Assembly: GCA_000724175.1 (NCBI GenBank)
Contig: JPGV01000038.1
Coordinates: 1 to 55,449 of the forward strand
Length of the DNA: 55,449 bases
DNA from: [Candidatus Thermochlorobacteriaceae] bacterium GBChlB
GTDB lineage: Bacteria; Bacteroidota; Chlorobiia; Chlorobiales; Thermochlorobacteraceae
Reading direction: 5' to 3'
Part shown: in pieces, positions 1-12,461 of the stretch
How positions within the stretch are numbered: the stretch's first letter is position 1
Layout: each line of letters begins with the position of its first letter
Position numbers and translations under genes: made by a program
The notes under the pieces: model-generated
The model's input: only the letters and a program-made list of their open reading frames with translations
What the model was told of the DNA's origin: nothing
Database searches by the model: none

Positions 1-2
1 AC

Positions 3-32
3 CAATCACCAAAGTCAATCACAGTCAATCAC
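3..32. repeat. three direct CAATCAC repeats at the window edge
   Basis: The heptamer CAATCAC occurs at 3-9, 16-22 and 26-32, the last two exactly 10 bp apart, about one helical turn. It lies upstream of a promoter-like sequence and the small peptide gene, so it could be a regulator-binding array. It may continue to the left of the window. Function is unknown. Confidence 0.4.
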
Positions 33-52
33 CAAAACCACATCGAAATAAG

Positions 53-81
53 TTGACAAAGAAAAAATAAACGTGTAATCT
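53..81 (+). promoter_or_regulatory. candidate sigma-70-like promoter of the peptide operon
   Basis: A perfect TTGACA at 53-58 is followed after exactly 17 bases by TAATCT at 76-81, which keeps the first two and last bases of the -10 consensus. The predicted start of transcription near 88 leaves a leader of roughly 60 nt before the ATG at 147. The -35 match is strong and the -10 weak. Bacteroidota-type promoters (TAnnTTTG) are an alternative model and do not fit better here. Confidence 0.45.
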
Positions 82-146
82 TACCGCAATTCCGATGCAC
101 ACCTTCGGAAGACAATTACAATCAACAATCTAAATTCAATACACTT

Positions 147-317
147 ATGAAAAAGAGAATCGTTTTCGGTTTTATTGCAACAGTAATGTTGTTTTTAGCA
201 GTTACCACGGCGGGCATTGCGGGCGACTGTAGCGTAAGTGCTTGTGGCGGAGGCACTACAGGCTGTTGTATAGATTCACAAGGAAATTTATTTCTTATGA
301 CGAGAGTGCTTCAGTAA
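147..317 (+). CDS. short secreted cysteine-rich peptide (56 aa)
   Basis: This 56-residue ORF begins with a textbook signal peptide: MKKR, a hydrophobic stretch to about residue 22, then an AGIA-like cleavage site near 25/26. The predicted mature part is only about 30 residues and contains four cysteines (28, 33, 40 and 41, the last two adjacent) in a Gly/Thr-rich context, ending LMTRVLQ. It is first in a same-strand cluster with a beta-propeller gene, a MauE-like gene and an RND pump. Bacteroidota are known to carry short secreted Cys peptides (NVEALA and similar families) beside six-bladed propeller genes; I see the same layout but no NVEALA motif. A hairpin right after its stop could make it more abundant than the downstream products. 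Function unknown; a bacteriocin-like, signalling or redox peptide is inference. Confidence 0.7.
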   Translation: MKKRIVFGFIATVMLFLAVTTAGIAGDCSVSACGGGTTGCCIDSQGNLFLMTRVLQ

Positions 318-335
318 TCATAATAATGATTTAAA

Positions 336-375
336 GCGTGATTACTCCACTCAAAGTAATCATGCCTTTCCTTTA
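336..375 (+). terminator. attenuator-like hairpin between peptide and propeller genes
   Basis: An 11-bp stem (336-346 paired with 355-365, one G-U wobble) closes an 8-base loop and is followed by CTTTCCTTT and further T-rich sequence. It sits 18 bases after the peptide stop codon and before the next start at 400. It resembles a leaky intrinsic terminator that would set a high ratio of peptide mRNA to downstream mRNA, or a 3' stabilising hairpin for the peptide transcript. Confidence 0.6.
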
Positions 376-399
376 ACAATTTTCTACTTTAAAAATAGT

Positions 400-1452
400 A
401 TGAATAAAAAAGTATTTTTTGCGTTTTCAATCTTACCTGCTGCTACTGTATGTTTTTCCTTACTTCTTTATGCAAAGAAATCTAATTTCGCCGAATCAGC
501 AAATAATGATAAGGTAATACAAAGAAGATATAAATCAGTTAATTTAAATTTAATTAGTCAATTTGAATTGGCGGCAAATGTGGTTAACCTCAAATACTGC
601 AATTCTCATCTTTACATATATGATTTTGATAAACAGAGAATTCTCAGCATCAACACTAAAGGTGAGGTTACTCAAGCATATGGAAAGCGCGGTTCAGGTT
701 CGGGGGAATTCATTCAAATAATGGGATGGGATGTCAATTCATCAATGGTTAGATGTGTAGACTTAGGCACTTTATCTGTATCTTGTATTAATCATCAAAA
801 TAAGGTTATTGAATATTCAAAATTTGATAAAAGTTTTTTCTGTGCCACACCGTTGAATGAAAACTTATATCTGATGCGAGGGGTTACTTACTCAAAGGAG
901 AAAAAGCCTGGCGCTTCGTTCAGTTCTATATTTTGGTTGTTAGACACAAAATTGAAGACCCAAACAGAAGTTCCAATTTTGCTTCCGGAGGAAACCACAG
1001 TTCCCGAACTGGCATATAGTGGTTTTTTTGCGAATTCATCAAGCGGGGATATGCGTTTTTTTGTATGTGATCGCGCGGGATATTTTTTTGCATTTGATAA
1101 ATCAGGCAAGTTTAAATATTTAGCAAGAACGACAGATAATTTTTCACTTCCAAAAATTATAATAAATGAAGGTGGGTCAGCAAGTTTCGATGCCAAATCT
1201 CCGTTTACGAGCTACAGTGCTTCATCAACGGATAAATATTTATTTGTACTTTCAGTAGTAAATGAAATCAATGTAAATCCTAAGAGTAGAGGCGGCGTAA
1301 TCGACGTATATGATGTAAATGACGGTCGTTACCTTTGGAGTTTTGAATTGCCAAAAGTTGATAATGCAAAATCGTCAGCTATAGCAATTACTGAAAATCA
1401 AATTTTTGCTTACTATGGAGAGAAAATTGTTGTTTTCACATATAGCGAATAG
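400..1452 (+). CDS. six-bladed beta-propeller secreted or membrane-anchored protein
   Basis: The 350-residue product starts with MNKK and a hydrophobic segment (about residues 5-24), a signal peptide or N-terminal anchor, so it acts outside the cytoplasm. The rest shows repeated propeller strands of the type 'Y.YD..., Q.I..I...G...', including a GKRGSGSGEF turn near residue 95. This is typical of the 6-bladed beta-propeller (NHL-like) proteins common in Bacteroidota. No catalytic motif is visible, so a binding or scaffold role is likely. The stop overlaps the next reading frame by 38 bases, which suggests coupled translation. Base composition is markedly AT-rich compared with genes beyond 5 kb, consistent with horizontal acquisition of this block. 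The ATG at 400 has no strong Shine-Dalgarno. Confidence 0.7.
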   Translation: MNKKVFFAFSILPAATVCFSLLLYAKKSNFAESANNDKVIQRRYKSVNLNLISQFELAANVVNLKYCNSHLYIYDFDKQRILSINTKGEVTQAYGKRGSGSGEFIQIMGWDVNSSMVRCVDLGTLSVSCINHQNKVIEYSKFDKSFFCATPLNENLYLMRGVTYSKEKKPGASFSSIFWLLDTKLKTQTEVPILLPEETTVPELAYSGFFANSSSGDMRFFVCDRAGYFFAFDKSGKFKYLARTTDNFSLPKIIINEGGSASFDAKSPFTSYSASSTDKYLFVLSVVNEINVNPKSRGGVIDVYDVNDGRYLWSFELPKVDNAKSSAIAITENQIFAYYGEKIVVFTYSE

Positions 1453-1855
1453 ATATTCTGAACGTATTTTATTATTTATTCAAATAACTTTGTTTGCATT
1501 GTATCTATATTCTTCTTTGGTGAAAATTTTAAACTTGAATGGTTTTCATAATACACTACTTAAATCTCCAATGTTTGACTCAGCATTAGCAGGCATCTTG
1601 GTATACACCGTTCCAATTTGGGAGATACTTATATGTGGGCTTATTGTAAATTCTAAAACATATCTACTTGGATGCTTTGCGTCATTTTTCACAATGGTCT
1701 GTTTTACTATTTACTTAATTCTTATTTACACACAATTTTCTCTTACGCCGTGTTCTTGCGGCGGCGTCATTAATTCATTGAGTTATGAATGGCATATCGC
1801 TTTGAATCTATTTTTTGCATCTCTTTCAATCGTTGCAATAAGTTTGAAAAAGTAG
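1415..1855 (+). CDS. MauE/DoxX-like redox-associated membrane protein
   Basis: A 146-residue integral membrane protein with about four hydrophobic segments (roughly residues 17-36, 54-75, 80-106 and 124-143). It matches the MauE/DoxX-like pattern: a first helix followed by a loop, and a conserved PCSCGG element (Cys113 and Cys115) before the last helix. MauE-family proteins are known to be needed for disulfide formation in periplasmic partners such as methylamine dehydrogenase, and are related to quinone-linked thiol oxidation. The start is uncertain: an upstream in-frame TTG at 1406 is possible, but the ATG at 1415 is preferred. It overlaps the propeller gene and is followed after 4 bases by the RND start. 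The context suggests it oxidises cysteines of the small peptide; that is inference. Confidence 0.7.
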   Translation: MERKLLFSHIANRYSERILLFIQITLFALYLYSSLVKILNLNGFHNTLLKSPMFDSALAGILVYTVPIWEILICGLIVNSKTYLLGCFASFFTMVCFTIYLILIYTQFSLTPCSCGGVINSLSYEWHIALNLFFASLSIVAISLKK

Positions 1856-1859
1856 ATTT

Positions 1860-4800
1860 GTGTCTCTTCCCGAATTATCGGTTCGTCGTCCGATAACGAC
1901 ACTGATGTTTTATGCTGCCCTTGTTATTATGGGCTATATTTCCTTTCAAAAACTCAGCGTTAATTTTCTTCCTGAAATTCAGACGCCGCGTTTAACCGTA
2001 AAGACGGCCTACCGCGACGCCTCACCCGACGAGGTTATGAGATTGATTACCGAACCGATTGAGCAAACACTGCAAACGATGTCAGGCGTCAGAAAAATTC
2101 GTTCTGTCTCTCGCGAAGGGATCTCGGTTGTTCAGGCTGACTTTTATTGGGGGACGGATATGAATTTTGCCTTAATAGAAGCGCGTGAAAAATTAGACCG
2201 ATTAAAAACTGCACTTCCGAAAGAAGTGGAACGTCCTAACATTCTTCGAATTGACCCCTCGAGTGAACCAATTATGACGCTGGTCGTCGTCGAGCGCTCT
2301 GATACGGGAAGAAACGCTGTTTCCAAGGCAGACCGTCTCAGCGAGAGTCAACGTCGCGCCCAAGCGCTATATGAGGCAAGTTTATTATGCGAAACTTTTA
2401 TTAATCGCCGTTTAGAGCAGCTCGACGGCGTCGCCCAAGCACGCGCAGTTGGCAGCCCGTTGCGCGAAATTCAGGCAAGCATTAACACAAGAATAATGAG
2501 CGCATTTGGGTTATCGCTTCAAGATGTGGCAGCGAAGCTGGCGGCACAGAACATCTCGGCGCCACTGGGGACGATTAAAGACGGAAATTTTCGCTACCCT
2601 CTGCGCGCTGAGTCTGAATTTAAGACGCTTAGCGATATTGAAAATGCGATTGTAGGCAGAACAAAAGACGAGCGGTTGATTTTATTTAAAGACATCGCTA
2701 AAATCACGGATGCGTTTGCCCAGTCCAAAGCGGTTACTTTATACAATGGCGTTGAGACGATTGAAATCCAAATTAGAAAAGAGGCGTCTGCAAATACAGT
2801 CGAGACGTCGCGCCGAGTCAAACAATTATTAAAAGAACTTGAAGGCGAATTAGGCAGGATTCGACTCGCGGTCGCTTTCGATCAAGCTGAATTTATACAG
2901 CGCTCGATTGATGACCTTGTTGGGTCAATTTATCTTGGGGCATTTTTAGCATTTTTTGTTTTATTCTTTTTTCTCAACGAATTGCGATACTCCTTTCTTG
3001 TTGCTGTTACCACGCCGATTTCCATCATCATCACATTTATTTTGATGTATGCGTTCAATGTAAACATCAACATTATTTCACTGACGGGAGTTGCTTTGGG
3101 AATCGGAATGCTTGGAGACAACGCGATTATCGTCATTGAAAACATATCGAGACTTCGAGATGAAGGAGTTGAACGGAGGGCGGCGATTATTGAAGGAACC
3201 AAAGAAATTAATTTAGCCGCCGCCGCCTCGACTTTTACGAACGTGGCTATTTTTTTGCCGGTCGTTTTTACGGACGGTATTGCCCGCGAGATTTTTCGCG
3301 ATATGGGCTTAACTATGACGTTCTCACTGCTTTCTTCTCTACTTGTTTCCGTCACGCTTGTCCCGACCTTGCTTAGCATAGAGCGTCGTGGAAATAAGCC
3401 AAGCATTTTAGAGACAAATTTGTCGCTTCTGAAAGCCATATCGAGAAGAATACTGGATTGGCGGTTGGAGGGACAACGAATTTTTATACGCCGCTATGAA
3501 CAGTGGTTGAAAATTATTTTGGAGAATCGCAAGACAACTTTATTTATTTCCTTCATTATCCTTACAGCGACGGCTGCAACAAGTGGCTTCATACCCTCGG
3601 AGACAATTCCGCGCATTAATCAAGGTCGTTTTTCTATCACGATGAACTTCCCAAAAGGATATGACGTTAATACAACAACAGAGGCTGTCAAATTCCTGAT
3701 TTCGGAAATGTTCTCCATTTCGACCGTAGAGGCGGTATTGGCTGAAATCGGTATGTCTCAGGGAAATGATGAAATCTTTTCACTTGAAAACGCAAGAACC
3801 GAAAATACGGCGGAGTTGGAAGTGAAATTACGCGAATCCAGTAATGAAAAAGAGACTATTGAAAAATTACGTCTATTGTTTTCAAACCAGTCCAAATTTG
3901 ATTTTCAATATTCCATACAACGAAAGCGGACAACATTGGAGCAAATCTTTCGCCCTGAAAAAGACGATATTAAATTGAAAGTTATTTCTACTAATTTGGA
4001 TAGCGCGCTCGTAGCAGCGACAACGATTAAGAATCTTATCAATAAAATACCGGAAGTAAAAGATTTGAGAACCGGATTAGAAGAGACGAATCCAGAATAT
4101 CGTTTATCTCTCGATTATGATGCGATTAGCCGATATGATATTGACGTCAAACAGCTTCTTAATTTCATAGAATATACAGCGCGAGGCGTTGTAGCAACGA
4201 TGGTGCGTGAATCAGACGAGAAAATTTCGCTGCGACTTAAACCTGAACATACGCTGCTGACACTAAACGCAATTCTTTCTCAAGAAATAATGACGAAAAA
4301 CGGCTTTGTGCCGATTCATTTCTTAGTTCATGTCGCTACGACTAACGTGTATAGTCAAGTTTCCCGAGAAAACGGCAAGAAGCAAATTGTTATGCTTGCG
4401 AATGCATCACAAAACACATCGGTAACATCGGTTGTAGAAACTATTGAGAGACGAGTTAAAGCGTCGGGCGTTCTTTCAAGCATGGTTTCATTGGAAATTG
4501 GCGGTGAAAACGAGGAGATAAAAGCGTCATTCCGTAGTTTGATTGCCATTGTGCTGCTTTCGCTGCTATTGGTTTATATGATACTCTCGGCGGAATTCGA
4601 GTCAATTATTTATCCTCTGGTCATTATGCTGACCAGCCCGTTGGCGGTTATCGGCGCACTTGTGGCAATGTTAATTTTCGGGCAAACATTTAATGCAATG
4701 TCGCTGATTGGCATTGTCATCATGGTTGGAGCTGTGGATAATGATGCAGTTATTGCGACGGACTTTATTATTGAACTTCGGCGTCGGGGCGTTGCTTTAA

Positions 4801-5033
4801 CTCAGGCTATTTTCGAGGGGGTGTCAAAGCGGTTGCGCGCGATTGTGATGACTACGCTCACGACCGTTATGGGCATTATTCCGTTGGCATTTAACCTTGA
4901 AGGCGGCTCTCAACTTGCAACTGCCCTGACCATTCCGCTTGTAGGAGGATTAATTTCCGCTACGCTTTTTACGCTGATTACGATTCCCGTGGTTTATTAC
5001 TATTTGGATAGAGAGCCCAGCAAACCATCTTGA
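1860..5033 (+). CDS. RND family efflux transporter permease (HAE1/CusA-like)
   Basis: The 1057-residue protein has the usual length and duplicated architecture of an inner-membrane RND pump. It opens with LSVRRPITTLMFYAALV (first transmembrane segment and amphipathic start), has a large periplasmic porter half (about residues 35-330), a helix block including GMLGDNAIIVIEN near residue 420, a second periplasmic half (about 570-870), and a second helix block with VGAVDNDAVIATD near 960. RND pumps use proton motive force with an adaptor and an outer-membrane TolC partner, neither of which is encoded nearby. Start is GTG at 1860, four bases after the MauE-like stop. The acidic proton-relay region reads G-D-N rather than the double Asp of AcrB. 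Substrate is unknown; its location suggests co-function with the upstream genes. Confidence 0.9.
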   Translation: MSLPELSVRRPITTLMFYAALVIMGYISFQKLSVNFLPEIQTPRLTVKTAYRDASPDEVMRLITEPIEQTLQTMSGVRKIRSVSREGISVVQADFYWGTDMNFALIEAREKLDRLKTALPKEVERPNILRIDPSSEPIMTLVVVERSDTGRNAVSKADRLSESQRRAQALYEASLLCETFINRRLEQLDGVAQARAVGSPLREIQASINTRIMSAFGLSLQDVAAKLAAQNISAPLGTIKDGNFRYPLRAESEFKTLSDIENAIVGRTKDERLILFKDIAKITDAFAQSKAVTLYNGVETIEIQIRKEASANTVETSRRVKQLLKELEGELGRIRLAVAFDQAEFIQRSIDDLVGSIYLGAFLAFFVLFFFLNELRYSFLVAVTTPISIIITFILMYAFNVNINIISLTGVALGIGMLGDNAIIVIENISRLRDEGVERRAAIIEGTKEINLAAAASTFTNVAIFLPVVFTDGIAREIFRDMGLTMTFSLLSSLLVSVTLVPTLLSIERRGNKPSILETNLSLLKAISRRILDWRLEGQRIFIRRYEQWLKIILENRKTTLFISFIILTATAATSGFIPSETIPRINQGRFSITMNFPKGYDVNTTTEAVKFLISEMFSISTVEAVLAEIGMSQGNDEIFSLENARTENTAELEVKLRESSNEKETIEKLRLLFSNQSKFDFQYSIQRKRTTLEQIFRPEKDDIKLKVISTNLDSALVAATTIKNLINKIPEVKDLRTGLEETNPEYRLSLDYDAISRYDIDVKQLLNFIEYTARGVVATMVRESDEKISLRLKPEHTLLTLNAILSQEIMTKNGFVPIHFLVHVATTNVYSQVSRENGKKQIVMLANASQNTSVTSVVETIERRVKASGVLSSMVSLEIGGENEEIKASFRSLIAIVLLSLLLVYMILSAEFESIIYPLVIMLTSPLAVIGALVAMLIFGQTFNAMSLIGIVIMVGAVDNDAVIATDFIIELRRRGVALTQAIFEGVSKRLRAIVMTTLTTVMGIIPLAFNLEGGSQLATALTIPLVGGLISATLFTLITIPVVYYYLDREPSKPS

Positions 5034-5155
5034 CACTTGATGTTGTCATAAAATTATTTACAAAAATTTAACCCTGTTTTTTCAGACAAGCGGCGCGGCA
5101 GTTGTATATTCCGCCAGAATTGTTTTCAACGTATCTCGCCTGCTCTGAACGCGGA

Positions 5156-6028
5156 ATGAGTCAGCGCAACACACTTCGATGTGTCAGCATCAACACCCAT
5201 CGCGGACGCGGTCCGAAGGTTTCCTATCTGCTTGCGCAATCGCCGCTCGATGAAGTCGAGCGCATTGAGTTGCTCAACGAGACACGCGCTTATACCTACT
5301 ACATCGCCGAATGGCTGAACCTAAATAAAGAGCGGTTCGATGTCGTCGGGCTTCAAGAAGTGTTCAACGGCATCTTGGGATTCGGCGACCGATTGTTTAA
5401 GAAATTTCGGCAGCGCGACCATTACCGCGTCATATCGGGGTTTCGCACAGCGATTTCGCACGGCGTCGGCTTTGCGGCGTTCCGATACGAAAATCTCATG
5501 CTCTCGCAGTTGCAGATGATTGGTCAAACGCAAATCAATTACCTCTTGCCGGAGCGCGTGGCGTTCTTGGCGGCGTGTGGTTTTACCCTTGCGCCGTTTA
5601 TTTTCAATGAGCAAGTGGTTTGGATAGGCAACACGCACTTGCACCCATTCAATCCGCGCGACCGCGCCAAACAAGCCGCCAGCATCGCTTACGAAATCAA
5701 AAAACTTGGCGATGTGCCTGTCGTCTTTATGGGCGACTTGAACACCGTGCCGCCCGGCTGTCGCGATACGGGCTTTCCCGCCGGTGAGCGCGATGTTAAT
5801 AGCTACAAAAACGACAAAACGTTTGACATCTTGACCGGCGTAGGACTTAAACTCGTACCGCACGAGGACAGCGATAAATTTTATACCTATCCAACAGGGC
5901 TTCCGAACCGCACGCTCGATTACATTCTCTTTTCAAAACATTGGGACGTCGCGCGCTACGAGGTTCTGAAAGAATTTAAATTTTCCGACCACTATCCCGT
6001 CTTCGGCGAGTTTCGTTTGAAAGACTAA
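5156..6028 (+). CDS. endonuclease/exonuclease/phosphatase family protein
   Basis: The 290-residue product carries the ordered motifs of the Mg-dependent EEP fold: an N-terminal VSINTHRG strand, VGLQEV (metal-binding Glu, about residue 65), GNTHLHP, MGDLNTVPPG (Asp and Asn of the active site, about 195), DYILFS, and a terminal SDHYPVFGEF. The family includes DNase I, exonuclease III, sphingomyelinases and phosphoinositide phosphatases; substrate cannot be chosen here. No signal peptide is obvious, so a cytoplasmic role is likely. An in-frame TTG at 5102 would add 18 residues, but homology begins just after the ATG at 5156. The SDR gene follows after 22 bases, so they may be cotranscribed. Confidence 0.8.
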   Translation: MSQRNTLRCVSINTHRGRGPKVSYLLAQSPLDEVERIELLNETRAYTYYIAEWLNLNKERFDVVGLQEVFNGILGFGDRLFKKFRQRDHYRVISGFRTAISHGVGFAAFRYENLMLSQLQMIGQTQINYLLPERVAFLAACGFTLAPFIFNEQVVWIGNTHLHPFNPRDRAKQAASIAYEIKKLGDVPVVFMGDLNTVPPGCRDTGFPAGERDVNSYKNDKTFDILTGVGLKLVPHEDSDKFYTYPTGLPNRTLDYILFSKHWDVARYEVLKEFKFSDHYPVFGEFRLKD

Positions 6029-6050
6029 TTGACCATTCAATCATCAAGTT

Positions 6051-6866
6051 ATGAACTTATTTTCTCTTGACGGAAAAGTCGCCGTTGTAACTGGCGCGCT
6101 GGGCTTGCTGGGCAAGCAACATTGTTACGCCTTAGCGGAAGCGGGCGCGACGGTGATTCCAACCGACCTTGACCACGACCAGTGCGTTCAATTCGCCAAC
6201 GAACTCGAGCGCACCTTCAACCGCGAAACGCGCGGACACGGGGCGAACATCACCAATCCCGACTCGGTTAAACTTCTGCTCGAGTCCGCGCTCGAAGAAA
6301 CGGGACAAATTGACATTCTTGTCAATAACGCGGCGATAAACGATATGTTTGAAAATCCAACGGCGGCGGCAGAACTCTCAAAGTTTGAAAATTATCCGTT
6401 GGAACTGTGGAGGAAATCGCTTGAAGTAAATGTTACAGGCGTGTTTCTCTGTTCGCAAATCATTGGCGCAGCGATGGCGAAGCGCGGCACTGGCAGCATC
6501 ATCAACATTGCCTCGACTTATGGCATTGTGGCGCCCGACCAAAGCATTTACAAGCAGCCCGATGGGTCGCAGCGTTTTTACAAATCGGCAGCGTATCCGA
6601 CGACCAAAGGCGCTGTGATTTCATTCACGCGATTTCTTGCCGCGTATTGGGGCGAGCGCAATGTGCGCGTGAACTCTCTTTCACCCGGCGGCGTCGAAAA
6701 CGCGCAAGATGAGTTTTTTGTCAAGAACTATTCGGCGAAAACACCGCTCGGCAGAATGGCACAGCCGACGGACTACAAAGGCGCGATTGTTTTTTTAGCC
6801 AGCGACGCGTCGGCTTATATGACGGGCGCAAACCTTGTCGTCGATGGTGGCTGGACAGCTTGGTAG
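6051..6866 (+). CDS. short-chain dehydrogenase/reductase (SDR), FabG-like
   Basis: A 271-residue classical SDR. It has the N-terminal dinucleotide site TGALGLLG (about residues 15-22), an Asp at the end of beta-2 (TDLD), an NNAA strand motif (about 91), the catalytic Ser in NIAST (about 159) and YPTTK giving Tyr and Lys of the active site (about 182-186). The C-terminal DGGW is also typical. The Asp after beta-2 hints at NAD preference. Such enzymes act on hydroxyl or keto groups of sugars, lipids or acyl-ACP; the substrate is not identifiable. It sits 22 bases after the EEP gene and is followed by an intrinsic terminator. Confidence 0.85.
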
Positions 6867-6940
6867 TGATTTTCTTTGTAGCAAAAATTTGTAGCTTTTT
6901 ATTTGGAGAAATAAAATCAGCGACAATTTGCAAGAAGTTT

Positions 6941-6968
6941 GAAGCAAAATTTTATGCTTCACTTTTTT
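6941..6968 (+). terminator. intrinsic terminator after the SDR gene
   Basis: The inverted repeat GAAGCA (6941-6946) and TGCTTC (6955-6960) with an A/T-rich 8-base loop is followed by ACTTTTTTAA. The T run lies on the plus-strand side, so it ends the 5156-6866 unit rather than the convergent kinase gene. Confidence 0.65.
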
Positions 6969-7023
6969 AACTACAAAAAAAATTGCCACGTAATATGCTG
7001 ATGGAAACTTCTTTTAGAGAATT

Positions 7024-10000
7024 CTATGTAATTAAGCTGTCATTTTTTAAGATATTGAAGACAGTCTGAGCAATTTTCTCAACAGCGAAAGGCTTTGAGA
7101 CGATGATAACGCCTTCTCTCTCAAGTTTTTCCGCCGATTTGGCATCCAAGTAGCCGGTCATGATAATGCCTTTCATTTTTCTACGGCGTCGGCGGATCTT
7201 TTTGAATAGTTGCAAGCCGTCCATGTTCGGCATTCCCATATCGCTAATGACCAAATCAATTTTTTTGCTTTTTGCTTCAAAAACTTTCAACGCTTCTTCG
7301 CCATCGGCGGCTTCCAGCACAGTATAGCCTTGTTTTCTCAACATGCCCGATAGCATTTTACGCAGATAGCTTTCATCATCGACGACGAGAATGGCGGCGT
7401 CTCCGGTATAAATCGGCTTTGCTTCTGCTTCTTTCGTGTTCGGAATGCCTGCGTTGAAGAGAGGAATGTAGAGCTTGAACGACGTGCCTTTGCCGACGGC
7501 ACTGTTGAGTTCAATAAAGCCATCGTGCGCACTTACAATACCGTGCACAATTGACAGTCCCAGCCCTGTGCCTTTGCCAACGCCTTTGGTGGTAAAGAAT
7601 GGCTCAAAGATGCGCTGTTGAATTTCGGGCGGCATTCCCACGCCAGTATCTGCAACTTCAATAACTGCGAACGGCATCTCGGCGGCTGAAGCATTATTCG
7701 GCGGCCGTTTTGTTTCGGTGTAAAGATTGAATTGCAACTTGCCGCCGTCGGGCATTGCATCGCCAGCGTTGATTCCCAAATTAAGCAGGACTTGATAGAG
7801 TTGTTTGTCGCTGCCGTTTATCCAAACATCGTGTGCGAGTATTGTTGCCTCGACCTGAATTTTTTTCGGGAGAAGCCGGCGAAGCGTAGAGGCGATTTCT
7901 TCAACGAGCGGTTGCGCTTCTACTAACCGCTTCTGCACTTGGTCGGTGCGCGAGAAGTCTAAGAGTTGACGCGCGATGTGCGCGCCGCGCTCAATGGTTC
8001 TTTGAATAGTAGCGATGTGATTCAGCAGATCTTTGCGCTTCAATTGTTCTCCAAGCGCATGTGCGGCGAGCGAGACAATTGCCATAATGTTGTTGAACTC
8101 ATGTGCGATGCCACTTGCCAGTGTGCCGACCGCTTCCAACTTTTGAGACTGCATGATTTTCTCCATGAGCAGTTGCTTTTCCAATTCCGCTTCTTTTTGG
8201 GCGGTGATGTCCATAATGACGTGGTTGACTCTGACGATATTCCCGTTATCGTTTTTCGCAAACGACCCGATGGCACGAACATGCTTAACGCGCCCGTCGT
8301 CCATCAACAATCGATATTCAATGTTGTTTGGAGTTCCCGCTTGGAGCGCGTGTGCGTTGCTTTGCTCGACAAAGTCGCGGTCGTCGGGGTGAATGCGGTC
8401 AAGATATTCCTGATAGGTCGGTTCGCCCAGCGTTTTCGGGCGTTCATACAGTTTGAAGGTCTGGTTTGACCATGTGATTTTTCCGCTTGTCATATCCATT
8501 TCGCAACTGCCGATTTTAGCAATGTCTTGCGCTTCGGCAAGCAGAGCTTCGCTTTTCTTCACACGTACTTCGGCAAGCTGCTGCTCGGTTACATTTTGCA
8601 CGACGACCATGATTTGTCGGACAAGTCCTTCCGCGTCGTGAATCGGCGTTGCAATGTATTCGTATTGCGCCGCGCCGAAGTCAAGCACAAAGCGCGACTG
8701 CACGCCTTGACCAGCGTTGATAAGATGGGATTTCAACTGCGTGGCGATGTCAGGCGGGTAGATGTCGTCAACCGTTTTTCCCACCAAACTTTCGGGCGAG
8801 ATGCCGTAACGGCGGTACTCCGTGCCTTCGGTAAACAGCAATTTGAAGCCTGTGTCATAGACGCCAATCATGCCGTTGGGAAAATTTTGGGCGACGGCTT
8901 CGTAGAGCTGTTGCGAGCGGCGCAGTTCTTCGGTGCGCTCCTGCACGCGCTTTTCAAGCGACTCATTCAAGTCTCGAAGTTCATCTTCTAATTTTTTCCG
9001 CTCGGTGATGTCTTGAACGGTTGCGGTGGCGTGTGTGGTTTTGCCATCGGCGTTATTGAAGAGCTCTACTTTGAACATGTAGAAGGTGCGAACCTCGCCT
9101 GTGTCGGCGCGGCGAATGCGGTATTCAAATGGCTCGTTGATGAATTTATCGCCATATTTCACGGCTTTGGCTTTTGCCAATTGCGCGACAAGAATCGGCG
9201 CGTCTTCGGGCAAGGTAAACTTTGTCTTTGTTACCACTTCGTCAAAGGAAAAGGTTCTTTTACCTAAGTCTTTAAGTGTTGTGCCAAGTTGCTCAATGTG
9301 TCGGTCGCTGTAGGTCAAGGTTTGGTCATGGAAGTTGATGTCAACTGTGCCGATGTTTGCGATTTTCAAGACCTCAGAGAGTTTTTGCTCGATAATTTTG
9401 CGCTCGGTGATGTCGATAAAAATGCCGTTGTAAATAATTTCGTCGGAACCGGTTTCGGTGGTCGGAAACGGTATGGATTCGGCGCGAATCCAGCGTGTTT
9501 CGCCGTTCGGCTTGATGAACTGAAACTCGTGAAAAAAACTTGCTCGGTTCTGCACGATGGATTGAATTGCAGCAGCTAATTCGTCCATCTCTCTCTGCGG
9601 AAGGCGCGTAAAAGCGTCGGCAAGGTTCTCGTCGGAGAGTCCAAAGATGTCTTTGGCTCGCGGGCTGACATAGAGAAACTTCATCTCGCCGGTCGTTAGG
9701 TTCAGTTTCCATTGATAGACGACGCCGGGCGAGACGGTAATGAGCGCGCGCAGTTGTTCTTCGGCATTTTTCTTTTCAGTGATGTCCAGATAGACGCCGT
9801 TGAATGTAACACGCTCTGAGTTTGAGTCTTTGGTCGGCATGCTTTGCGCTTGTATCCACCGCAGTTCGCCGTTGGGCTTTTGAATTTGAAATTCCAATGA
9901 GAACGGTTTCATTTCAAACGCTGCCTCCAAAACGGCATTGACGATGAACGAAAACTCTTTTGGGTCAAAGAGCGCGGAAAAGCGCGACATATCTTGCATC

Positions 10001-11046
10001 AATTCTTCTCTGCTCCATCCGAAGAGGTCTTTGCAGCGCGGACTGAGATAGGTATATCCGCTGGCGTGCGCCATCGTCACGCTGTCGCCATTTAAGTAGG
10101 CATTCTTTAACTTGCTTGGGTCAATGAAGTATTGATAAATCACGCCCGGCACGAGGGCGGCAATTGCCGACAGTTGTTCTTCTTGTTCGCGTCTTGCCCT
10201 TTCTGTTTTTTTTCGTTCCGTGATATTGAGCGTAACGCCTAAAACGCGGTCGATTTTTCCATCATCGTCGGGCAACGGCACCACTGTATTTTGGTAAAAG
10301 AACCCTTGATTTTCGAACTCGAATGACTGCGCCTCGCCTTGAAAGACTTTATCGTATAGCGCTTTGACTTCAGTCAGGTCTTTATGCGCGAAGATGTCTT
10401 GAATGCTTAATCCAACAAACTGCGCCGGGTTTAATCCGAGCGCACGATACTCTTCGCCGTCGGTGAATATCAAGCGATAATTTCTGTCGAACACGTTGAT
10501 GGCGCCGCTCGGAAAATATCTGGCAATGGCTTGAAACAGGCGTTTGTTTTCAGATTCTTTTTCTTGGGCTTCCCGGAGTTCTTTCTCGATGCGCTTTTGT
10601 TCGGCGAGCATCAGGCGCGCCTCTGTTTCTGACTTATGCAGGGCGTGTTCCAGACGGCGGTAGCGCTCTTCACAATCCGCCGCACCGACGCGTCGAATCA
10701 CAGACAGCATCGCTATGCGCGCGCCGTCTTGCTCAATAAAGCAGACGCGCTTTTCGAACCTCGCCGTTTTTCCATTGAGATTAGCGTTGACTACTACTAC
10801 CGCGTCATTTTCCAACGCGGTAAATTCGCGGTGATAGTCTTCCAGAGTGGTCTTGTTTACCTCAAACGGGAAGAGGCCAACGATGGACTTTCCGACCGCG
10901 CTTTCGGGCGAGATACCAGAGAGGCTGGCATAAGCCTCGTTGGCGTGAAGCACGACGCCATCCGCGTCTGTTACTATTGCTGCGTCGGAAATATGTTTCC
11001 AAAGGAAGCTAAAGAGTTGTTCTGAATAACTGAGTTGCGCCGTCAT
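7024..11046 (-). CDS. hybrid histidine kinase with about seven PAS domains and a C-terminal receiver
   Basis: A 1340-residue cytoplasmic sensor without transmembrane segments. About seven PAS/PAC units fill residues 10-960, several ending in DITERK-type linkers, with a coiled coil near 690-715. HisKA follows with AHEFNN (His982), then HATPase_c with NLGINAGDAMP (N box), DTGVGMP (G1) and GKGTGLGLS (G2). The C-terminal receiver (about 1215-1330) has the DD pair, phospho-acceptor Asp1269 in SDMGMP and a SKPF lysine. Start was set at the ATG at 11046 because AAGGAGGAGA lies just upstream; a start 24 bases earlier would place that site inside the gene. It follows the dual-receiver gene by 28 bases and probably forms an operon with it. 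The signal sensed is unknown. Confidence 0.9.
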   Translation of the reverse strand: MTAQLSYSEQLFSFLWKHISDAAIVTDADGVVLHANEAYASLSGISPESAVGKSIVGLFPFEVNKTTLEDYHREFTALENDAVVVVNANLNGKTARFEKRVCFIEQDGARIAMLSVIRRVGAADCEERYRRLEHALHKSETEARLMLAEQKRIEKELREAQEKESENKRLFQAIARYFPSGAINVFDRNYRLIFTDGEEYRALGLNPAQFVGLSIQDIFAHKDLTEVKALYDKVFQGEAQSFEFENQGFFYQNTVVPLPDDDGKIDRVLGVTLNITERKKTERARREQEEQLSAIAALVPGVIYQYFIDPSKLKNAYLNGDSVTMAHASGYTYLSPRCKDLFGWSREELMQDMSRFSALFDPKEFSFIVNAVLEAAFEMKPFSLEFQIQKPNGELRWIQAQSMPTKDSNSERVTFNGVYLDITEKKNAEEQLRALITVSPGVVYQWKLNLTTGEMKFLYVSPRAKDIFGLSDENLADAFTRLPQREMDELAAAIQSIVQNRASFFHEFQFIKPNGETRWIRAESIPFPTTETGSDEIIYNGIFIDITERKIIEQKLSEVLKIANIGTVDINFHDQTLTYSDRHIEQLGTTLKDLGKRTFSFDEVVTKTKFTLPEDAPILVAQLAKAKAVKYGDKFINEPFEYRIRRADTGEVRTFYMFKVELFNNADGKTTHATATVQDITERKKLEDELRDLNESLEKRVQERTEELRRSQQLYEAVAQNFPNGMIGVYDTGFKLLFTEGTEYRRYGISPESLVGKTVDDIYPPDIATQLKSHLINAGQGVQSRFVLDFGAAQYEYIATPIHDAEGLVRQIMVVVQNVTEQQLAEVRVKKSEALLAEAQDIAKIGSCEMDMTSGKITWSNQTFKLYERPKTLGEPTYQEYLDRIHPDDRDFVEQSNAHALQAGTPNNIEYRLLMDDGRVKHVRAIGSFAKNDNGNIVRVNHVIMDITAQKEAELEKQLLMEKIMQSQKLEAVGTLASGIAHEFNNIMAIVSLAAHALGEQLKRKDLLNHIATIQRTIERGAHIARQLLDFSRTDQVQKRLVEAQPLVEEIASTLRRLLPKKIQVEATILAHDVWINGSDKQLYQVLLNLGINAGDAMPDGGKLQFNLYTETKRPPNNASAAEMPFAVIEVADTGVGMPPEIQQRIFEPFFTTKGVGKGTGLGLSIVHGIVSAHDGFIELNSAVGKGTSFKLYIPLFNAGIPNTKEAEAKPIYTGDAAILVVDDESYLRKMLSGMLRKQGYTVLEAADGEEALKVFEAKSKKIDLVISDMGMPNMDGLQLFKKIRRRRRKMKGIIMTGYLDAKSAEKLEREGVIIVSKPFAVEKIAQTVFNILKNDSLIT

Positions 11047-11050
11047 CGTT

Positions 11051-11060
11051 TCTCCTCCTT
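11051..11060 (-). promoter_or_regulatory. strong Shine-Dalgarno deciding the hybrid kinase start
   Basis: AAGGAGGAGA on the minus strand lies about 5-7 bases before the ATG at 11046. It is one of the strongest ribosome binding sites in the window, and it rules out the in-frame ATG at 11070. Confidence 0.75.
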
Positions 11061-11074
11061 TGTCTGTCATGTTG

Positions 11075-12406
11075 TTATTTTTCTCGGGCGATTTCGCTGA
11101 GCCGTTTCAGTCGTTCCATCGTCTGGTCGGATGTGCTTTGTTTTATCGTGGCGGTTTTGAACACTGGTGCTTCTTTTCGTTCGGTCGGCACCAGCGGCAA
11201 GGCTTGTCGCGCGCCATTTTTTTGCGTCCCGCTCTCGACACGCTTGCGACATTCCTGAACTGCATCTTTCAAAATTCCCAAGAGCTTATCGCCGTTCCAT
11301 GGTTTCTGCACATGCCGGAACAGCACGCCTTGATTGACTAACTTCACGACGTCTTCCATATCGGCGTAGGCGGTCATTAGAATTTTCGGGACGAGCGGCG
11401 CCATGCTTTGAGCTTGCTCCAAAAATTCCGCGCCTGATTTTTGAGGCATTCGCATATCGGTCATGATGCAGGCAATAAACGCATTCTTTTCCAAAATGTC
11501 GAGCGCGGCGTCGGCGGAGGTGCATGAGAGCACGTCAAAATCCGACACCAGCGATTCGCAGAGCGACGTGAGGACTTTGGCTTCGTCATCGACGATAAGG
11601 ATTTTCGGCTTGCCGCTTCTGCCATGAAACGACCGCTCGAAAATCGAGCTACTAGCGGGCGCCAGCAGCGTTTCCTCAAACGCATTGAGTTTGGCGAAAA
11701 ACTCTTCCTCGAAGCTCTCGAACTTTTTGAGTTCAGCGATGACTTCCTCTTTGAACGAGGCGAAAAATTCTTCCTCGAAACTCGCATAACGTTCATTGAG
11801 TGAGCCAATGTAATGCCCGTGATGTGCATGCGGATTAGATTTAAAAAACTCCTCTTCGAAGCACGGCGGGTCGGTGCGACGATTGGACGTCGGAATTTGC
11901 TCGATAAAATCGGGCAGCGCCGGCCTCGCTTCGGGTTTACACGATTGCAGCGTAGGCTCAACGGGTTTCTGCTCTTCGACATTTTTTGGAGGCATGGCTG
12001 TTTTCCCCGCTTTCTGTCGACGCAGCATAAAACTCGCCATCGCCAGCGCGACAATAGATTTCAGCGTTTCCGGCACCCATGGTTTTCGCACATATCGGAA
12101 GACTTCGCCGACATTGACGGAATCTAACACGGCTTCTAAATCGGCATAGCCCGTGAGCAGAATGCGCATGGTGTCTTGCGAAATTTGCTTGATGTTCTTG
12201 AGCAGCTCGACGCCCTTCATGCCCGGCATACGTTGGTCGCTGATGACGATGGCAATGTCGGGATGATGCTGAAACATCGTTAATGCCATGTTGCCGTCCG
12301 ACGCTGTCAAGACTTGGTATTCTACATCAAAGAGTTGAGACAGCGCTTCCAAAATATGAGGCTCGTCGTCGACGATCAGCATCTTTGCTTTTTTGTAATT
12401 GTTCAT
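11075..12406 (-). CDS. dual-receiver response regulator with repeated FEEEFF linker
   Basis: A 443-residue protein with two receiver domains. REC1 (about 8-125) has MLIVDDE, acceptor Asp57 in ISDQRMPGMKG, TGYAD and a RKPW lysine. REC2 (about 265-385) has ILIVDDE, an Asp in MTDMRMP, TAYAD and a QKPW lysine. No output domain follows, only a Lys/Thr-rich tail. The linker (about 130-260) contains the hexamer FEEEFF three times (near 183, 210 and 232) within charged, probably helical sequence. It is paralogous to the 15186-16310 product, which has one copy (VEEEFF). An in-frame GTG at 12424 is an alternative start. It precedes the hybrid kinase and is probably a phosphorelay partner for it; the partner is inference. 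Confidence 0.85.
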   Translation of the reverse strand: MNNYKKAKMLIVDDEPHILEALSQLFDVEYQVLTASDGNMALTMFQHHPDIAIVISDQRMPGMKGVELLKNIKQISQDTMRILLTGYADLEAVLDSVNVGEVFRYVRKPWVPETLKSIVALAMASFMLRRQKAGKTAMPPKNVEEQKPVEPTLQSCKPEARPALPDFIEQIPTSNRRTDPPCFEEEFFKSNPHAHHGHYIGSLNERYASFEEEFFASFKEEVIAELKKFESFEEEFFAKLNAFEETLLAPASSSIFERSFHGRSGKPKILIVDDEAKVLTSLCESLVSDFDVLSCTSADAALDILEKNAFIACIMTDMRMPQKSGAEFLEQAQSMAPLVPKILMTAYADMEDVVKLVNQGVLFRHVQKPWNGDKLLGILKDAVQECRKRVESGTQKNGARQALPLVPTERKEAPVFKTATIKQSTSDQTMERLKRLSEIAREK

Positions 12407-12461
12407 ATGCGTTTCTCTTTTCACTTAGGTTGTAAGATTGCTTTGTTCATTTTGTTCATCA

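Follow-up and report, generated by a model that had tools for sequence, protein, structure and literature searches.

Methylamine dehydrogenase pairs a small Cys-rich subunit and a propeller subunit with the proteins MauD and MauE. For MauE, disulfide formation during maturation of this enzyme has been speculated (as cited in PMC7794033). The sections of that paper on candidate Streptomyces RiPP clusters (decRiPPter) describe MauE/MauD homologues beside Cys-rich precursors, which they are proposed to modify. Bacteroidetocins are secreted Bacteroidota peptides with four cysteines, a double-glycine leader and a C39-ABC exporter, and they occur with a thiol oxidoreductase gene (PMC6671954). Bacteroides has been reported to be without general disulfide-forming machinery (PMC6671954). 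Therefore, a dedicated peptide oxidase in this phylum would be of interest.

We analyzed a stretch of 55,449 nucleotides (the window), which is the entire contig C38 of a 3.05-Mb genome (G000). Near one end it carries genes for a secreted Cys-rich peptide, a propeller, a MauE-like protein, and an RND permease. The locus has the MauE family, a small Cys-rich partner and a propeller in common with MauD/MauE maturation of methylamine dehydrogenase, and related cassettes, not that of the window, also hold a thioredoxin-like CxxC protein. However, its propeller is of another family, the peptides are variable, and by Pfam no genes for catalytic light or heavy subunits were found among the six genes at 147 to 6866. 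The decRiPPter clusters likewise place a MauE homologue beside a small Cys-rich precursor, but their hosts are Gram positive, their precursors have at least 8 cysteines, and those sections of PMC7794033 mention no propeller or RND. The likeness to bacteroidetocins lies in the four-cysteine secreted peptide and the thiol oxidoreductase gene; the window locus has neither their leader nor their exporter. We rejected an identity with bacteroidetocins, given that no GG cleavage motif precedes the cysteines and no ABC exporter is present among the genes examined at 1 to 12424.

Loci of the peptide family DUF6520 (PF20130) in other Bacteroidota families encode a secreted Cys peptide, the same type of MauE and the same propeller clade as the window. 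There, however, MauE is usually fused to the propeller and RND genes are absent nearby, whereas in the window they are separate genes with an RND gene adjoining, and the DUF6520 profile does not match the window peptide. MdtABC-type pumps have one MFP and two neighboring RND genes, a gene arrangement that also occurs at L227, L229, L234 and L237. In contrast, the two RND genes of the window genome are on separate contigs and adjoin peptide cassettes. The locus is built from known sequence families, and earlier work had predicted MauE together with Cys-rich precursors (in the cited sections of PMC7794033). The unit joins families without known function: DUF6520 and related orphan Cys peptides, DUF5128-type propellers, and stand-alone MauE. 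In the open-access literature we found no paper that describes MauE, propeller and peptide as a unit, with or without RND, and the literature searched yielded no paper on DUF6520, DUF5128 or NVEALA and nothing on MauE with bacteriocin.

Gene content and arrangement

A preliminary description of this DNA had reported four adjacent genes on one strand, for a 56-residue peptide with four cysteines, a six-bladed propeller, a MauE/DoxX-like protein with a PCSCGG motif, and an RND pump. The ORF list and Pfam matches above cut-off confirmed this, with all four genes on the plus strand. The secreted peptide precursor (147 to 317) has a hydrophobic N-terminus and a leader block shared with two paralogues. 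The propeller, predicted to be periplasmic and of a MauE-partner clade (400 to 1452; 350 aa), matches PF17170 ("6-bladed beta-propeller," DUF5128) with 28.1 bits against a cut-off of 22.9 (E = 1.4e-6). The MauE/DoxX-like membrane protein (1415 to 1855) matches PF07291 with 79 bits against a cut-off of 27 (E = 4e-22), and the CSCGG of its PCSCGG redox motif aligns with the CxCxG of homologues. The AcrB/HAE1-like RND permease (RND-A; 1860 to 5033) is full length, since PF00873 covers residues 5 to 1049 (E = 1e-195). Its nearest named relative is in a Thermochlorobacteriaceae MAG. The MauE ORF opens at TTG 1406, but comparison with the related genome G001 suggests that ATG 1415 is probably the start. 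From this ATG the gene shares its first 38 bases with the end of the propeller gene, and the RND gene begins 4 bases past the MauE stop, as the preliminary description had noted in outline. Between the peptide and propeller genes lies a hairpin on the plus strand (336 to 365; 11 pairs, -14.6 kcal/mol) that resembles a terminator or processing site. There is no thioredoxin-like gene and no MFP at the window locus. Farther along, at 7024 to 12424 on the minus strand, is a sensor-kinase-like protein of 1348 aa that contains several PAS-like repeats, adjoined by a protein with two receiver-like domains linked by repeated EEFF motifs (both by eye).

A repeated leader block precedes divergent peptides

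The window peptide carries its four cysteines, spaced C-x4-C-x6-CC, in the mature part, past the hydrophobic N-terminus. It matches no Pfam family at E ≤ 1 and has no credible NCBIfam match. It is also not DUF6520 by profile; only homologues match, L244 above the cut-off and G003 weakly. The earlier comparison to NVEALA-like peptides did not hold, as neither Pfam nor the NCBIfam peptide families gave a match; the nearest named family is DUF6520, for the homologues and not for the window peptide. In homologous loci the peptide occupies the same position, but the mature peptides vary greatly, and the spacing of the cysteines is therefore not strictly conserved. By eye, CC[IW]D[SA]xG is common to the window and L230 peptides.

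The DNA in front of the peptide is repeated in the genome. A block on the plus strand (20 to 173), which spans untranslated region and continues into the peptide gene as far as codon nine, has 90% identity over 154 bp to a region upstream of a peptide and a propeller on contig C29, and 84% identity to part of a third, partly masked copy on contig C50. All three copies are followed by their own Cys-containing mature part, a hairpin and a propeller gene; the hairpins on C29 and C50 lie at the same site and are stronger than that of the window. On C50, the genes for the peptide and for a second RND (RND-B) are divergently oriented. On C29, an HTH_18 gene in front of the paralogous peptide reaches into the block with its 3' end, and the C29 bases matching window positions 1 to 71 (plus strand) encode the end of that ORF. 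The contig physically stops at position 1, and what lay upstream of the window genes is missing. Positions 1 to 71 may be a remnant, or the tail of an HTH_18-like gene cut by the contig end. The block has no Rfam match, and TTGACA-17-TAATCT at 53 to 81 looks like a promoter but was not reported by the scan.

C29 and C50 both end at or within the start of another gene, by eye similar to thioredoxin-like genes of the related genome G003; a search of the assembly for its continuation found none. On C50, a run of N (L005, 1441 to 1527) covers nearly exactly the shared upstream block, which is consistent with an assembly gap caused by the repeat. The genome also has a second MauE locus, on C18 (L062, 5145 to 10586, minus strand), whose genes encode a thioredoxin-like protein and MauE, together with a peptide that has a motif resembling a GG leader (LSDEQLDGVQGG), a pair of TPR proteins, and a C39 peptidase (E = 5e-28).

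Related cassettes in the same family

Orthologues of the window RND-A (53 to 57% identity) are present in three genomes of the same family (G001, G002 and G003), where an MFP gene precedes them. G003 has the genes in one continuous stretch: propeller–HTH–peptide–propeller–CxxC protein–MauE–HTH–peptide–propeller–CxxC protein–MFP–RND-A, with RND-B divergent on the other side. The order in G001 is MauE–peptide–propeller–CxxC protein–second MauE–MFP–RND-A, and the MauE beside the peptide is 49 to 50% identical to that of the window. From these arrangements, the upstream neighbors of the window genes were probably lost in an assembly gap of repeated cassettes. In the assembly itself we found no orthologue of the MFP, the matches reaching only 24 to 29%. 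Neighborhoods with RND also include an MFP and, in many cases, both a thioredoxin-like protein with CxxC and an HTH_18 protein. Every aligned MauE has the CxCxG motif; every aligned thioredoxin-like neighbor has CxxC, although most of these score below Pfam cut-offs.

In G003, each of the two HTH_18 genes (L060, 477 to 1115 and 3569 to 4165) lies directly before a peptide gene, and both proteins terminate in an identical KPKEKTERENRKRKPKEKTENDFP repeat; ahead of the G001 peptide there is a similar repeat, rich in purines. The reading frame of the peptide at the corresponding place in G001 (L051, 9101 to 9316) is broken relative to the G003 peptide, through real decay or sequencing error.

MauE, propeller and peptide form a unit in other families

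The window MauE, used as a query, retrieved 28 loci outside the family. In 15 of these, MauE continues into a C-terminal domain of ~350 residues, giving fusions of ~500 aa, and in 2 more a separate propeller gene is adjacent. This total of 17 rests on a profile that includes ten of the counted domains, and the independent evidence is therefore a profile of the C-termini alone and hhalign. The former matched the window propeller at 1.2e-10, as well as those of L230 and L244, its two nearest homologues; of eight further propeller loci, with C29, C50, G001 and G003 among them, it matched none. By hhalign, the fused C-termini matched the window propeller at 99.8%, compared with 0.8% for an unrelated control (MFP). 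By these sequence comparisons, the domain fused to MauE is a propeller of the window clade.

Profiles were needed here: as a single query the window propeller had no match in 101 relatives. It has no lipobox, in which the C29 and C50 paralogues differ, and a profile of the C29, C50, G001 and G003 propellers matches NHL propeller structures. A single-sequence structure prediction of the window propeller had a mean pLDDT of 36, too low for use.

In other families, the MauE–propeller fusion is directly followed by a four-cysteine secreted peptide (DUF6520). A search for DUF6520 gave 13 genes above the cut-off, and 13/13 are within 222 to 1231 bp of such a MauE; below the cut-off, 1 of 4 is near MauE, which with the other 13 gives distances of 147 to 1231 bp. 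With wider flanks, 16 MauE–peptide loci have the propeller fused to MauE (13), beside it (1), or absent (2), and most of their peptides have four cysteines. Within about 8 kb of these 16 loci there is no RND, MFP or thioredoxin-like gene. The preliminary description had staked its reading on a conserved neighborhood with the peptide present in homologous loci, and both are conserved in Bacteroidota. Thus, the constant pairing with a Cys-rich peptide and the gene fusion argue that MauE, propeller and peptide are one functional unit.

Peptides from three families (L110, 6691 to 6891; L114, 2658 to 2840; L115, 6164 to 6397) carry at the C-terminus a motif resembling C-[YL]-C-[DE]-x-[IV]-[IV]-x-T-P, and the G003 peptide at L060 3298 has a similar end.

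The RND neighborhood is recurrent but optional

A propeller profile matched in 38 of 394 genomes. We compared 40 propeller loci from outside the family with 20 control regions of the same genomes. An RND gene was near the propeller in 12/40 loci and 0/20 controls (p = 0.004), a small secreted-looking ORF with at least 2 cysteines was present in 22/40 and 4/20 (p = 0.009), and, seeding with RND-A homologues instead, a propeller was nearby in 9/17 loci and 1/20 controls (p = 0.0015); these p-values are optimistic, as loci from the same genus are not independent. Sixteen of the small Cys ORFs were directly upstream of the propeller on the same strand, compared with 0 in controls. The closest locus, L230 (G269), is from another family and has the window order, HTH–Cys6 peptide–propeller–MauE–RND, with an orthologous propeller (E = 4e-45). 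Because it recurs in other families, the combination of peptide, propeller, MauE and RND is far beyond chance. The RND link is real but not universal, and RND is an accessory in some lineages.

Could the RND gene be a bystander, with peptide–propeller cassettes that spread as repeated units and landed by chance within an efflux cluster? The repeated block at three loci of the window genome fits this, as do the core units without RND and the existence of MFP–RND-A–RND-B clusters without a cassette, such as L229. However, the enrichment over control regions runs in both directions, and at L227, L230 and L238 the cassette lies between efflux genes on the same strand; at L227 and L238, the peptide and propeller are inside the MFP–RND-A–RND-B cluster. 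We therefore regard a bystander as possible but doubtful.

The preliminary description had read the locus as a set that makes, oxidizes and exports a Cys-rich peptide. The secreted peptide with MauE and propeller as fixed partners stands; export by RND as a general rule does not, in view of the 16 loci elsewhere that have no RND or MFP. These loci also count against a bacteriocin- or signal-like peptide that is oxidized by MauE and exported by RND, with the propeller as its receptor or immunity protein. This alternative would account for the two-way enrichment, and three copies within one genome that keep the leader block but differ in their mature parts are in line with a secreted peptide that diversifies. 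However, a MauE-fused propeller is more easily seen as a maturation partner than as an immunity protein, and RND pumps are, to our knowledge, not general peptide exporters. We consider it distinctly unlikely.

Proposed function

We think it reasonably likely that the locus is a dedicated periplasmic peptide-handling module, in which MauE and the propeller act as a thiol-redox machine for the secreted Cys-rich peptide. A signal peptide would direct secretion of the peptide. From the inner membrane, MauE would exchange thiol/disulfide equivalents with the periplasm through its CxCxG cysteines, and the periplasmic propeller, coupled physically to MauE (covalently in other families), would dock the peptide, whose cysteines would be oxidized or kept at a set redox state. 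The module of this lineage sits within an MFP–RND-A–RND-B efflux cluster, and related cassettes also include an HTH_18 regulator and a thioredoxin-like protein with CxxC. The RND pump may export the peptide, be responsive to it, or just have regulation in common with it. Thiol redox on the peptide is the likeliest chemistry because of the role of MauE in maturation and the CxxC proteins of related cassettes, although MauE could as well deliver reducing equivalents. The Streptomyces clusters with MauE/MauD beside Cys-rich precursors, as described in the sections of PMC7794033 cited above, support the peptide-handling reading.

A methylamine-dehydrogenase-like arrangement, in which the peptide, as a small Cys-rich subunit, and the propeller, as the other subunit, stay together in a stable redox complex of the periplasm and MauE serves only to mature it, would explain why the same kinds of parts recur at these loci, but it is very improbable, as the mature peptides are far more variable than a catalytic subunit would be, the annotated neighbors show no recognized cofactor-bearing enzyme partner or cytochrome, and the fusion joins MauE, not the peptide, to the propeller.

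Extending the peptide-handling module beyond this locus, we tentatively suggest a Bacteroidota-wide maturation machine in which MauE–propeller makes disulfides in hypervariable secreted peptides, and to which some lineages coupled a two-permease RND pump, creating a new form of peptide export or of efflux control by the peptide. A functional RND link would mean either that RND pumps also act on ribosomal peptides or that a peptide controls efflux.

At two other loci (L130, 1194 to 6175; L132, 4307 to 6213), propellers with Cys-rich peptides are accompanied by ABC transporter genes, one of them with a C39-like N-terminus, in place of RND, suggesting that export partners are interchangeable.
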